DNA from: Breznakia pachnodae
GTDB lineage: Bacteria; Bacillota_I; Bacilli_A; Erysipelotrichales; Erysipelotrichaceae
Assembly: GCF_030814225.1 (NCBI RefSeq)
Contig: NZ_JAUSUR010000008.1
Coordinates: forward strand, 186,001 to 250,000
Length of the DNA: 64,000 nucleotides
Direction of reading: 5' to 3'
How positions within the stretch are numbered: position 1 is the stretch's first letter; each line of letters begins with the position of its first letter. Of the stretch, positions 2,443-11,952 are shown piece after piece. A model generated the notes under the pieces. That model was not told the DNA's origin. It did not search any database and saw only the letters and a list, made by a program, of their open reading frames with translations. The translations under genes were made by a program, and so were the position numbers.

Positions 2443-3762
2443 TTAATCAAACACGAGTCTTAGTTCATTCCCTGCATAATCATATACATAGAATATATTG
2501 CTATATTCTTTTTTTGTTTGTACTTTAATAATCTGATTTGCTGCATCATACTCATATTCATTGCTTTGTACTCCTTCTCTTAAGAAGGTAATTGTATCTG
2601 GATTAATCCCTGATATATCATCACTCAAATAAATCGTAAAGTTATTTCCATCATGTTCACTTGTCATCTGTGGACTGTTTCGATCAATATTAGTAATTAT
2701 TAATTCCCTACTATCAATGATTTCTCCATTTCTCTGGAGTTGAACCTGATAGGTTCCATTGTTGTCGATTTGATTTGTAACTACTCCATCAATCAATATT
2801 GCGTCGAATTCTTCATTTGATGTTACTACTTCAATAACAATTGATTCATTGGTCCATTCCTGTGAATAGTTAATTGAATTAATCTGCGCTGAACTTATGG
2901 AAGGCTCTTCCACTACAGGTACTTCAGGTTGCTCTATTACTTCTTGCACCACTGGTTTTACAACTGGTTCTTCTTCAGGCAACATCGATATACCTACATA
3001 AGCACCAGTTACAACAAGTGCTATACCACCTATCACTTTTGCATTCATTGTAATCATAGCTGTCGCAGTTTCTACTAATGACTTTTTAATGATTACATCA
3101 CTAATTACTATTCCTTCTGTAGCTTGAGCAAACATTGACTCATACACCTGACTAATTACTTGCGGCAGAAAAAATGTAAAGCCATAAGTTTTTGGTGAAA
3201 CTCCTTGTTTTCGCAGTTCATCTTTTAAAATTGAACGAACACGATTCAATCTTGATTTTACGGTTCCTTTTGGAATATCTAGAACTTTTTCAATCTCTGA
3301 TATTTTAAGTCCACTAAAATACTTTAGCATTCCAACACTTTTTAAAGTTTCATCCATTTTTTGCAGCGTTGTTTCTACTATTTTTACAATTCGCTGATTT
3401 TCAATAATATCTAGTGTTTCTTTTGATGCGGAATCAATAACTTCTTCTGCGTCATTATTGTTATGAAAAACCACTTCCCTAAACTTTGTTCTATTGAAAT
3501 TTGAACATGTATTATAAGTCGTACGATATAACCATGCATGAAATGCTTTTGGCTCCTTTAATGTACCAATATTCTTATAAATATTAATAAAGATATCATG
3601 TGTTATATCCTTTGCTTCTTCTTCATCTAAAATGAATTGATTTACCATAAAATTCACTCGTTGTGAATAAGTATTATAGATTTCCTCAAATGCCTGTTCA
3701 TCTCCTTCTTTGGCTCGTATAATAACCGATGAAGAAATTAGATATTGTTTATTTCTATTCAT
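2443..3762 (-). CDS. ECF-like sigma-70 factor fused to a transmembrane helix and an extracellular Ig-like domain
   Basis: Predicted RNA polymerase sigma factor of 439 residues, more than twice the usual ECF length of about 180. Region 2 spans about residues 14-85 (AKEGDEQAFEEIYNTY, then DITHDIFINIYKNI). Region 4 spans about 130-185, with the helix-turn-helix SEIEKVLDIPKGTVKSRLNR. A hydrophobic helix follows at 243-261. A Pro/Glu/Val linker runs through 262-290, and a beta-rich Ig-like domain fills 295-439, with DDISG and YDYAGN motifs seen in Ig-like folds. Topology should place regions 2 and 4 inside the cell and the Ig domain outside. An upstream in-frame ATG at 3780 lacks a ribosome site, whereas GGAGAAAGG precedes the ATG at 3762, so the shorter start is chosen. 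The gene follows the surface-protein gene with little gap, probably in one transcript. No separate anti-sigma gene is visible. Confidence 0.85.
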   Translation of the reverse strand: MNRNKQYLISSSVIIRAKEGDEQAFEEIYNTYSQRVNFMVNQFILDEEEAKDITHDIFINIYKNIGTLKEPKAFHAWLYRTTYNTCSNFNRTKFREVVFHNNNDAEEVIDSASKETLDIIENQRIVKIVETTLQKMDETLKSVGMLKYFSGLKISEIEKVLDIPKGTVKSRLNRVRSILKDELRKQGVSPKTYGFTFFLPQVISQVYESMFAQATEGIVISDVIIKKSLVETATAMITMNAKVIGGIALVVTGAYVGISMLPEEEPVVKPVVQEVIEQPEVPVVEEPSISSAQINSINYSQEWTNESIVIEVVTSNEEFDAILIDGVVTNQIDNNGTYQVQLQRNGEIIDSRELIITNIDRNSPQMTSEHDGNNFTIYLSDDISGINPDTITFLREGVQSNEYEYDAANQIIKVQTKKEYSNIFYVYDYAGNELRLVFD

Positions 3763-3786
3763 CTTTTTTCCTTTCTCCATATTAAG

Positions 3787-5952
3787 TTAACTATACCTTT
3801 TCTTTCTATTAAAAAATAAAACCAATACTAATGAACTTAACATTAACAATAACGAATATATAGTTACATTACTGTGATCAGATAATACAGGATTACTACT
3901 TGGATATCCTGTTAAATTAACCTGTTCCTCTAAATCTGGTTTTATTGATGGTTTAGGACTTACAGGATCAGTAGGTTTTGGCTCAACTGGATCTACTGGT
4001 TTCGGTTTCTCAGGATCAACAGGATCTGGATCTGGGTCCGGATCTGGCTTTTCTGGATTAACTACTGTTTTCTTTTTCCACTGTGCATATAAATAGACGT
4101 CCTCGTAAATATCAAATACATCATTTGCATGATAACTTATTCCACTTCCATCTCTTTTTGTATTCCATCCGATAAATTCATATTCTTCTCTAGTTAAATC
4201 TGATTCATTCAATATCGTAACTGTATAACCTGGGGTATAAGGATTATGTACATCTACAGGAGCAGTTCCGCTTGTTTCACCGTTCCCGTCATAGATAACT
4301 TTATACGTAATTTTCTTCTCCTCAACTATATTAAATGTAAAAGGCTGAGGATTGCTCCCTTCATAACTATGAACAGTTGCTGCGTTAAGACCTTCTTCGT
4401 CTTCTCCTTGTGCCCATACATATAAGGTATATTCTCCTGTTTCCAGATTTGTATTATCTATTGTCGACTTTATTGTTTGTATCTTTAATACATCAGGTGT
4501 ATCACCTTTACTGGTTCCATAAGCAACAATTTCACGACTTCCATCTGGAGTGGAACGAACAATTTTATATGCAAGATAATCGCCAATATAATCATCACTT
4601 TTTACTGTAATTGATTTTCCTTCTTCTACTTCTAATACAGTAGAAAAATCGATAGGTTCATCACTGACATTGGTAAGTGAATTCAACTGAACCTTATCAC
4701 TTACCAATGTTAATTTATAGTTATTAATTCCATCATCTCCATCAGCATAATTCCAGAAACTATCATTTGTTTTATCTTCCTGAATTTGATTTGACAGCAC
4801 TGGCTCATCTGGTGTAACTAAATGCGTCATAATTACGTTTTCTGGCACCAATTTAGTAATTGGTCGTATTCCGTTATAATCCCTAGAATATGAATATAAC
4901 GTAACCTGTCCGTTTTCGTAAACAATATAAGTGTAACCAGAATCTGATTGTGCATAACTTCCATCTGGATTACGAAGCCAATAAGCAATAGGTTCCTTAT
5001 ACTTAGTCTGACCTTTATAAATATCTTCACCAACTTCACCAATACTGTAATCTAGCGATGTAGAAGTTTTTGGCAATCCATTAGAATTCCAAAATACTTT
5101 TCGATGTGACGGAAGTCCTGTATATGTTGATAAACCAAATGGAATATAGGCAATTGCATCGTATTCAGTAACTGGCCACTTACGAAACTCAATTACTCCT
5201 GATGCAAAATAACTTGTCCATTCCCCAGTCGTAAGATGATTTTTTACATATTGGTACATATCTCCAGGACTATCTGAATCAATTACAACTTCACTATGGT
5301 TCACTCCATCACCCTGCATAATTGCATAAGTATCAACCGTACTACGTCCAATCGAATTTAACTCTGCATCATAACTGATAGATGTATCGCTTTCTGTTAT
5401 CTTAAAACTATTACCAAATCCAATTCTTGCAGGTAAATCTTCATAACCATATCGACCTGGATTGTTTAGTACAAATTGAAATGGCTGATATTTATAAGTA
5501 TATTCATTATTCAGCCATCCATTTACAAATGATACGTGATAGTCAGCTTCTCCTGACATGAGTCCCATATGAGACCAACTCATTTTACCCATACCACTAA
5601 ATTTAGATGCATCAATAACATACTCACTAAACAGAGCTAAGTTCCCATCAGTTGTAGTTCCATCTAAACTTCCATCCTCACCCATTACCCGCCAAAGGAT
5701 TGGTGTTGGATTGCTTTCATAACTTGAGGCCTCTTTACCATAGAAATGGTACTTTGTACCATTCATCTGATTCATCGCTCCAAAATATACGCGATTTCCG
5801 ATTAATTCATCGAAATTCACCCCATCATACGGTTGCCCAATTGCTGTATTATCTTGTACTGGCATATCTGCGTATATGCTGCCCCCAATACAATATGTAA
5901 GCAACAACGCAAAAAACAGGGCAGCTAATACTACTCTTTTCATTTTAAACAT
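3787..5952 (-). CDS. Large membrane-anchored surface protein with DUF6273-like region and InlB B-repeat
   Basis: Predicted exported surface protein of 721 residues. A signal peptide occupies about residues 1-28. The N-terminal half resembles DUF6273-type regions of surface proteins, ending in an AYWLRNP...NGIRPITKL pattern near 320-370. A List-Bact_rpt (InlB B-repeat) unit lies at about 548-627 (YKVIYDGNG to LYAQWKKK). A Pro/Asp/Lys linker spans about 633-670, then a transmembrane helix near 697-715 and a basic tail (NRKKRYS). This is the layout of a sortase substrate, but no LPXTG motif is visible before the helix (VNLTGYPSSNP stands there), so it may stay membrane-anchored. An in-frame GTG at 5961 overlaps the AGGG ribosome site, so the ATG at 5952 is used. 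The sigma factor gene follows downstream. Ligand unknown. Confidence 0.8.
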   Translation of the reverse strand: MFKMKRVVLAALFFALLLTYCIGGSIYADMPVQDNTAIGQPYDGVNFDELIGNRVYFGAMNQMNGTKYHFYGKEASSYESNPTPILWRVMGEDGSLDGTTTDGNLALFSEYVIDASKFSGMGKMSWSHMGLMSGEADYHVSFVNGWLNNEYTYKYQPFQFVLNNPGRYGYEDLPARIGFGNSFKITESDTSISYDAELNSIGRSTVDTYAIMQGDGVNHSEVVIDSDSPGDMYQYVKNHLTTGEWTSYFASGVIEFRKWPVTEYDAIAYIPFGLSTYTGLPSHRKVFWNSNGLPKTSTSLDYSIGEVGEDIYKGQTKYKEPIAYWLRNPDGSYAQSDSGYTYIVYENGQVTLYSYSRDYNGIRPITKLVPENVIMTHLVTPDEPVLSNQIQEDKTNDSFWNYADGDDGINNYKLTLVSDKVQLNSLTNVSDEPIDFSTVLEVEEGKSITVKSDDYIGDYLAYKIVRSTPDGSREIVAYGTSKGDTPDVLKIQTIKSTIDNTNLETGEYTLYVWAQGEDEEGLNAATVHSYEGSNPQPFTFNIVEEKKITYKVIYDGNGETSGTAPVDVHNPYTPGYTVTILNESDLTREEYEFIGWNTKRDGSGISYHANDVFDIYEDVYLYAQWKKKTVVNPEKPDPDPDPDPVDPEKPKPVDPVEPKPTDPVSPKPSIKPDLEEQVNLTGYPSSNPVLSDHSNVTIYSLLLMLSSLVLVLFFNRKKRYS

Positions 5953-6193
5953 TGTTTTCACCCTTCGAAAATTCTTATGAATTTTCCTCTTTCTTTCTTG
6001 ATATAATCACTTTTACATAAATTGAACTTGTGCCATATCGTTATAAAGACACACAGTTCTAAAAAAGGTTCTCAACTTTTTATTTTCTTATCCCTCCTCA
6101 ATACGTTCACTTCCATAACGTCATTCATTTATTAGTCGTAGTAACTTAATATATCGTTCATTACTTATTTCTTTTTTTAAAAATCAAAAAAAA
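5953..6193. other. AT-rich upstream region of the surface-protein gene
   Basis: Together with the terminator beyond it, this leaves about 300 bases without a gene between the surface-protein gene and the metallopeptidase gene. It holds a possible ECF-type promoter at 6045-6072. No RNA gene, repeat or small ORF with a ribosome site was recognised. Confidence 0.5.
6045..6072 (-). promoter_or_regulatory. Possible ECF-type promoter before the surface protein-sigma operon
   Basis: Minus strand reads GAACCT, 16 bases, then TCTTT, about 90 bases before the start at 5952. This resembles the GAAC-type -35 element and short -10 element of ECF sigma promoters. No good sigma-A promoter was seen at the same place. 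If real, it suggests autoregulation by the downstream sigma factor. Weak evidence on its own. Confidence 0.3.
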
Positions 6194-6218
6194 GAACATC
6201 ACTAATAAAGTGATGTTC
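6186..6218 (-). terminator. Terminator after the metallopeptidase gene
   Basis: Perfect 10-bp stem (6194-6203 with 6209-6218), five-base loop, then a run of eight T on the minus strand apart from one interruption. Confidence 0.85.
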
Positions 6219-6261
6219 TCAAATTGTTTAACTGTAAATCTTTGCAGCATCTTTCCTGCTT

Positions 6262-10890: not shown

Positions 10891-11952
10891 TTAAAATAGT
10901 TTTAAAACATCGTTAAAGGTGGCGAATACCATTAAAAATACCAGTGCTAATACTCCACCCCACATTAGAATACCCATTACCTTTTCATTTAATTTTCGAC
11001 CCATTATCTTTTCAATAATTGTAATCAACACTCTACCACCATCTAAGATTGGTAGTGGAAGTGCATTCATAACACCAATATTAATTGAAAGAATAGCCAA
11101 TAAACGAAGATAAGTTGTGAATCCACTTTCTGCAGCTTGCGAACTAATTTTAAATATTCCTACAGGACCACTTAATTGATCTAAATTTTTCCCTTGGAAA
11201 ATTCTTCCCAGAGAATCAAATAATGCTGTAGAATTCGTTACTAAATCATCTGTACCATATTGTACCGCTTCTAATATTGAAATATCTTCATATTCTGTAG
11301 CAGGAGCATATACTCCAATTCGATACACTTCAGCTTGTTCATCATATAATGGAGTTAAGGTTAAATCAACTGATTCTCCATCACGATTCACTGTAAATGT
11401 TGCTTCTCCTGGGTTATAGTTAATAGCAGTTACAATATCATTGAATGTTTCAGGTTTTGAAACTTCTCCCGTTTCAAATGTAATCTTTTCTATTATATCG
11501 CCATCTTGAAAACCAGCTTCTTCAGCAATTGATCCTTCTTGCACCTGTGCAAACTCAGGACCTACAGGAAGTGCTCTTTCACCACTTGCGATGTTTAATC
11601 CAATGAAAACAACCCAAGCCAAAAGAATATTCATAATAATCCCTGCAGACATTACAATAACTTTTTTATATGTTTTGATTCCATTGATTGTACGTTCAAA
11701 TGGAATATTCTCGTCCTTTTTTGTATCATCTTCTTCACCAGCCATCGATACAAATCCACCGATTGGTAATAAACGAAGAGAGTATTGCGTTTCTCCTACT
11801 TGTTTTTTGAATAAAACAGGACCCATTCCAATTGAAAACTCACCACAATAAACACCAAAACGTTTTGCAGTTAAGAAATGTCCCAATTCATGTATTAATA
11901 CGATAATTCCAAGCAGGAATATAAAATATATAATTTGTAATAAAAAATTCAT
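10891..11952 (-). CDS. rseP: Site-2 intramembrane zinc metalloprotease RseP/RasP
   Basis: Membrane protease that cuts transmembrane segments of anti-sigma factors and leftover signal peptides. The 353 residues carry HELGH at 21-25 in the first helix, one PDZ domain at about 140-205, and the second active-site motif LPLPILDGGRVL near 297-308 with the ligand Asp. About four membrane helices are visible. The ATG at 11952 has a GGAGG site and lies four bases after the dxr stop, in the conserved cdsA-dxr-rseP order. A signal-tethered sigma factor is encoded about 8 kb away and would be a candidate client; that link is inference. Confidence 0.95.
   Translation of the reverse strand: MNFLLQIIYFIFLLGIIVLIHELGHFLTAKRFGVYCGEFSIGMGPVLFKKQVGETQYSLRLLPIGGFVSMAGEEDDTKKDENIPFERTINGIKTYKKVIVMSAGIIMNILLAWVVFIGLNIASGERALPVGPEFAQVQEGSIAEEAGFQDGDIIEKITFETGEVSKPETFNDIVTAINYNPGEATFTVNRDGESVDLTLTPLYDEQAEVYRIGVYAPATEYEDISILEAVQYGTDDLVTNSTALFDSLGRIFQGKNLDQLSGPVGIFKISSQAAESGFTTYLRLLAILSINIGVMNALPLPILDGGRVLITIIEKIMGRKLNEKVMGILMWGGVLALVFLMVFATFNDVLKLF

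Follow-up and report, generated by a model that had tools for sequence, protein, structure and literature searches.

The window analysed here, 64,000 nucleotides of Breznakia pachnodae (contig NZ_JAUSUR010000008.1, positions 186,001 to 250,000), carries near its start a minus-strand gene, P0001, whose product joins an extracytoplasmic function (ECF) sigma factor, a membrane helix and outer domains in one chain. An earlier note had read this protein as a one-component sigma factor that is held at the membrane and has a surface-protein gene as its partner. At the level of sequence, that reading is now supported by a family of 61 members, by the promoter that most of them share and by relatives found in further genomes.

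The self-tethered sigma factor and its operon

Residue numbers are those of the 445-amino-acid form of P0001, although the ATG at 3762 has a better Shine-Dalgarno sequence (AAAGGAAAAAAG-ATG) than the ATG at 3780. The gene and its parts are:

2443..3762, minus strand: P0001, self-tethered ECF sigma factor gene, 439 amino acids (445 from the upstream ATG at 3780, 2443-3780)
3469..3732, minus strand: sigma region 2, residues 17-104 (Pfam Sigma70_r2, confident AlphaFold helices)
3208..3414, minus strand: sigma region 4, residues 123-191 (Pfam Sigma70_r4_2, AlphaFold)
3040..3207, minus strand: cytosolic linker, candidate sigma-inhibiting segment, residues 192-247 (family conservation; low-confidence AlphaFold helices)
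2980..3039, minus strand: Gly-rich transmembrane helix (hydropathy), with the conserved Lys248 at its cytosolic end
2890..2979, minus strand: Pro/Glu-rich outer linker (sequence)
2446..2889, minus strand: two beta-rich, Ig-like outer domains, residues 298-366 and 367-445

Regions 2 and 4 without region 3, the ECF-type arrangement, are indicated by Pfam (Sigma70_r2, 9e-8; Sigma70_r4_2, 3e-7; also Sigma70_ECF) and by comparison with the PDB by sequence and by fold, the sequence matches being SigW, RpoE and AlgU-type sigmas over approximately residues 14-190. The AlphaFold model, built from an alignment, is confident for both sigma regions and uncertain for the linker and the helix, and hydropathy gives a single hydrophobic segment, at about residues 239-267. 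The intact open reading frame (ORF), Pfam, AlphaFold and hydropathy thus agree with the earlier claim that the sigma regions and a membrane helix follow one another in one frame. The linker contains no cysteine (residues 192-247), and its Pro206 is invariant in 36 aligned members from the same genome; we suggest inhibition of the sigma part as its candidate role. Lys248 is invariant in the close clade, Asn341 in the outer domain is invariant and Gly342 nearly so, and the conserved family positions further include W83, E162 and D366.

Beyond the helix, beta strands span residues 300-444 in the model, with AlphaFold confidence scores (pLDDT) of about 55-83, so that the earlier description of some 145 beta-rich outer residues holds. 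Their Ig-like identity is plausible but weakly supported: a Pfam search of the tail gave no significant match, and the outer domain gave a weak profile match to the bacterial Ig-like adhesin repeat MpAFP_RII (E 5.7e-6 summed over four copies). The C-terminal 149 residues folded alone gave a pLDDT of 42, and that model was discarded. The Pro/Glu linker, also described earlier, is present in P0001 but is limited to part of the family.

The sigma gene is the second gene of an operon that opens with the surface-protein gene P0002, separated from the sigma ORF by 6 bp:

3787..5961, minus strand: P0002, secreted surface protein with DUF6273 and List_Bact_rpt domains, probable start ATG at 5952
6134..6160, minus strand: family promoter TGAACG-N16-CGACT(A), about 170 bp before P0002
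2408..2436, no strand assigned: bidirectional terminator-like hairpin ending the operon
6192..6220, minus strand: terminator-like hairpin between P0003 and the operon

P0002 ends in a hydrophobic anchor and a basic tail.

A family of 61 paralogs paired with surface proteins

The genome that contains the window (G000; 4.30 Mb, 22 contigs) gave 69 matches in a homology search, and 50 stretches were inspected. It encodes 61 full-length paralogs of 423-482 amino acids, all in the same unbroken frame, together with one frame-broken member and several ordinary short ECF sigmas. The broken member (L017 4576-5858) is frameshifted after the helix and retains its promoter. Each of the 37 members scanned with Pfam gave matches for sigma regions 2 and 4 and none for a zinc-finger domain, and a hydrophobic segment after residue 190 is found in 60 of the 61. 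The outer parts contain almost no cysteine. Among close paralogs the sigma part is 63% identical and the outer domains are 42-44% identical, indicating that the outer domains diverge faster; the sigma parts fall into two deep clades that are about 25% identical. A frameshift fusion of two genes, or a helix buried in a soluble fold, would explain the architecture as an artefact, and a two-gene split form does exist in other genomes. Nevertheless, the same fused frame recurs in the 61 paralogs and in four further genomes (G001, G051, G085 and G219), so we give an artefact almost no credence. A survey of the neighbours at the 61 loci found no adjacent gene for a separate anti-sigma factor, as the earlier note had found for P0001.

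Nearly all of the 61 members adjoin a gene for a secreted, wall- or membrane-anchored surface protein, recognised by a start resembling a signal peptide and by a hydrophobic C-terminal segment followed by a basic tail. The surface gene usually lies downstream of the sigma gene, with a gap of -30 to +45 bp; it lies upstream in the window and in two sister members (L018 4857 and L013 6366). Partner domains include leucine-rich repeats, FctA and SpaA pilin-type domains and List_Bact_rpt. Many partners end in VNTGDTTN-hydrophobic-KRRK-type tails, which from their sequence look like non-LPXTG sortase signals, and the genome encodes six sortases. The LPXTG signal itself was sought by a simple pattern search, which gave none in the partners, the tails having NTGD/NTSD/NTAD-type signals instead. 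Two partner types (about 390 and 240 amino acids) have no tail signal, and several loci place them between the sigma gene and a larger surface gene. Partner type tracks the sigma tree, with 5 changes.

A promoter shared across the family

The dyad GAAC-N17-CGAC occurs in 35 of the 61 regions upstream of the sigma genes, where fewer than one is expected, and with variants included approximately 49 of the 61 show a TGAAC-N17-NNNC match. Across the genome 47 sites match TGAAC-N17-CGACT, compared with 4 for a reversed control, and no such excess was found in 19 related genomes; the CGTCT variant showed no overall enrichment (9 vs 15 in the control), several of its matches being family promoters. 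The 47 sites are concentrated on the family: 34 lie within 350 bp before a family sigma gene, and 4 precede other family operons (that of the window, the L018 surface gene, the L048 operon and the broken L017). Of another 5, one stands before a signal peptidase-pilin-sortase operon, three before large surface genes (1107, 774 and >2023 amino acids) and one before a short sigma, and the 4 unassigned sites equal the control level. An identical TGAACG-N16-CGACTA, a promoter of ECF type, precedes sigmas of both deep clades, as well as genes with no adjacent sigma. Approximately 60 tethered sigmas, all but a few beside surface genes and the majority under a common promoter, suggest a large, undescribed system for the control of surface display.

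Several loci that carry the promoter were observed individually. At L203 3792-7660 (contig C2) a pilus-type operon behind it encodes a signal peptidase, an FctA-domain pilin, a sortase and a small anchored protein. L207 3579-10480 (contig C4) has two divergent copies, one leading to bactofilin-like proteins, a signal peptidase and a tethered sigma and the other to the 774-residue surface protein; an operon similar to the bactofilin-like one occurs in G001 (L075). A family-type site at L205 2757-2783 (contig C3), which precedes glycogen synthesis-like genes by about 185 bp, may be due to chance, the control having given four sites.

Relatives in other genomes

Relatives were sought in 316 genomes of the order and in broader samples of the class and phylum. 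Full-length relatives were found, besides G000, in G001 (3), G051 (at least 5 among 7 matches), G085 (1) and G219 (1), and in the class and phylum samples matches at E 1e-50 were confined to the same two families. A contig scan with the P0001 sequence alone gave no match; a scan based on the alignment gave one full-length relative, in Thomasclavelia sp. STF2_103 of the Erysipelotrichales, which is G051 (L120, JAQVWN010000022.1), the rest being mostly generic ECF sigmas. Most members in G001 and G051 also adjoin surface proteins with TGD-type tails, some with signal peptidase genes. One G051 member lies in two overlapping frames (L084 4255-5491, contig C3), which may reflect a frameshift, an error of assembly or a programmed event. 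Tethered ECF sigmas whose outer domains are larger and of quite another kind were also seen at L115 4583-6370 (G258), L116 6097-8340 (G043) and L177 2154-4010 (Ruminococcus sp. UBA3767).

In two genomes the same parts are found as two genes, one for a short ECF sigma and, overlapping it downstream, a second one for a membrane helix and Ig-like beta domains (L119 5164-6463 in G314; L062 779-2058 in G018). The separate tether of G314 is homologous to the fused tether (E 4e-27), and G018 has a similar layout. Since the homologous tether is a gene of its own in G314, the tail of P0001 is best viewed as a fused membrane anti-sigma factor.

A second expansion of tethered ECF sigmas was found in genus g53 (G155, G157, G159 and G161; L104-L114, L213-L252), with 22-26 members per genome and a different outer domain of about 90 residues. 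A long surface ORF follows the tethered sigma in 48 of 51 inspected cases. SigmaA-like promoters stand before 42 of the 51 sigma genes (9 in shuffles), and the gaps between sigma and partner contain [TC]GAAC (35 of 48, against 13.9 in shuffles and 10 on the other strand), followed by a C at the same spacing at 32 of 40 GAAC sites, giving a GAAC-N17-NNNC promoter of the surface genes. The -10 cores are of 13 kinds and correlate with sigma similarity (Mantel r 0.33, 0/2000 permutations), as expected if either each sigma reads the promoter of its neighbour or whole loci were duplicated.

These observations bear on which sigmas read which promoters. It could be that each tethered sigma is wired only to its own neighbour, with the similarity of the promoters in G000 reflecting recent duplication and subtle differences separating the pairs. 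Such private wiring would fit the individual ECF-like promoters and varied -10 cores of the g53 surface genes, as well as the tracking of sigma clade by partner type in G000; we nevertheless consider it unlikely, as the identical promoter stands before both deep clades of G000 and before genes that have no sigma beside them. Alternatively, the shared promoter may be read by an untethered ECF sigma of the ordinary kind, or by a few of them, the tethered proteins tuning the surface genes in some other way. G000 does encode short ECF sigmas, one of which carries the family promoter itself (L022 6450-7010), and the region 2.4 helices of the tethered sigmas vary strongly. However, regions 2 and 4 are recognisable in every tethered member scanned, and the tie between sigma and promoter holds locus by locus, including in g53 where the promoters differ, which makes this explanation quite improbable.

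Proposed mechanism

The architecture, family size, pairing with surface genes and the promoter motif with its location are read directly from the genomes; from these we infer a tethered inactive state, a signal, a release and reading of the promoter by the family sigmas themselves. We favour, as the probable explanation, that proteins of the P0001 type are fused sigma/anti-sigma factors whose release would turn on operons for surface proteins, with positive feedback in this genome. At the membrane, the linker, helix and outer beta domains of the protein would hold its N-terminal sigma in an inactive state. An event outside the cell, probably at the beta domains, would lead to cleavage near or in the helix, likely by an RseP-type protease, and the freed sigma would then act at the promoter of the surface-protein/sigma operon, yielding surface protein and more sigma. 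As approximately 60 paralogous operons have nearly the same promoter, family members probably also activate each other and the pilus/sortase operon, and would jointly remodel the cell surface. The window itself encodes a candidate releasing protease:

10891..11952, minus strand: RseP-type site-2 protease with an HELGH motif (sequence), adjoining dxr in an ordinary housekeeping locus

P0003 (6262-7443, minus strand), immediately upstream of the operon, is a secreted protein that combines a Big_3 Ig-like domain with a HEATH metallopeptidase-like motif at the C-terminus. The idea that it is a Pro-Pro-endopeptidase-like enzyme acting on P0002 was dropped, the PDB search having matched the Ig-like part alone.

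Activation might instead occur by conformational change at the membrane without proteolysis, as in ECF41-type sigmas, since the extensions of ECF41 and ECF42 are reported to work by conformation (PMC8999054). This appears doubtful for P0001, in which a helix stands between sigma and outer domain and whose split homologs are laid out like membrane anti-sigmas, both features resembling systems controlled by proteolysis such as IutY.

Several observations weigh against the release model as we favour it. The linker has no known anti-sigma domain and is modelled at low confidence (score below 50), which leaves the inhibited pose hypothetical. L013 and a few other members have no recognisable promoter. 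The region 2.4 helix has a mean identity of 0.23 in G000 vs 0.43 in g53, despite the more uniform promoters of G000, and simple matching of sigma to promoter is therefore unsupported there; the correlation between -10 core and sigma in g53 could stem from duplication of whole loci.

Extending the release model to the genome is more tentative. Approximately 60 self-tethered sigmas, each with its own diversified outer domains, may feed one autoregulatory promoter class that governs most surface-protein operons and the pilus/sortase operon, while the related genus may have separately expanded a second type of tether, on constitutively made sigmas, each of which activates a surface gene of its own next to it. 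So many tethered sigmas in one genome, linked to surface proteins through a defined promoter, bring several questions within reach of testing: the number of sigma inputs that meet at a single class of promoter, whether cell-to-cell surface variation arises from positive feedback, and the way in which fused and split sigma/tether forms turn into one another. The finding also offers a means of predicting surface-protein regulons in Erysipelotrichales.

Comparison with known systems

To our knowledge, tethered ECF sigmas free of a separate anti-sigma factor are known from a handful of groups, with proteolytic activation worked out experimentally only for IutY. No paper on the present family was found in a literature search, which omitted most subscription journals and the principal publication on ECF classification.

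IutY of Pseudomonas putida (ECF243) is a fused ECF sigma/anti-sigma factor cut by Prc and RseP (PMC8999054; PMC5411451), and resembles P0001 in being a single chain of N-terminal ECF sigma, membrane span and outer C-terminal domain. In contrast to IutY, which serves iron-responsive cell-surface signalling with an outer-membrane receptor, the P0001 family belongs to a Gram-positive lineage, has Ig-like outer domains and surface-protein partners, and numbers about 60 copies. ECF243 is characterised by a FecR-type anti-sigma tail and a TonB-type receptor partner, and no FecR- or TonB-related Pfam domain was found in the P0001 tail or in the neighbours scanned. The actinobacterial groups ECF48, ECF52 and ECF53 (e.g. 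SCO4117) likewise bear a C-terminal extension with a membrane helix and an outer domain, for which proteolytic activation has been proposed (PMC8999054); they differ from the P0001 family in phylum, in their outer domains and in bearing a zinc-finger domain, likely a zinc-binding anti-sigma (ZAS) domain, not found in the 37 members of the P0001 family that were scanned. In Clostridium thermocellum, SigI-RsgI comprises paralogous membrane sensors of substrates, with nine RsgI factors cleaved by RseP (PMC12203970). The likeness lies in several paralogous membrane proteins controlling extracellular machinery; there, however, the anti-sigma is separate and SigI is not an ECF sigma, whereas P0001 has ECF Pfam matches and a fused tail.

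In fold, Foldseek places the sigma model of P0001 nearest to RsiW-bound SigW (template modelling score, TM, 0.82-0.84 depending on the target; about 0.4 for sigmas bound to RNA polymerase), a likeness to the anti-sigma-bound state that is a hint only, because models of this kind may arrange their domains relative to each other in a generic way. The split relatives in G314 and G018 share the two-gene layout of SigW-RsiW, while in P0001 sigma and tether are one protein, in which no zinc anti-sigma domain was found. Single-chain tethered ECF sigmas are already known; it is the outer domains, the pairing with surface proteins, the promoter wiring and the scale of the P0001 family that look new.
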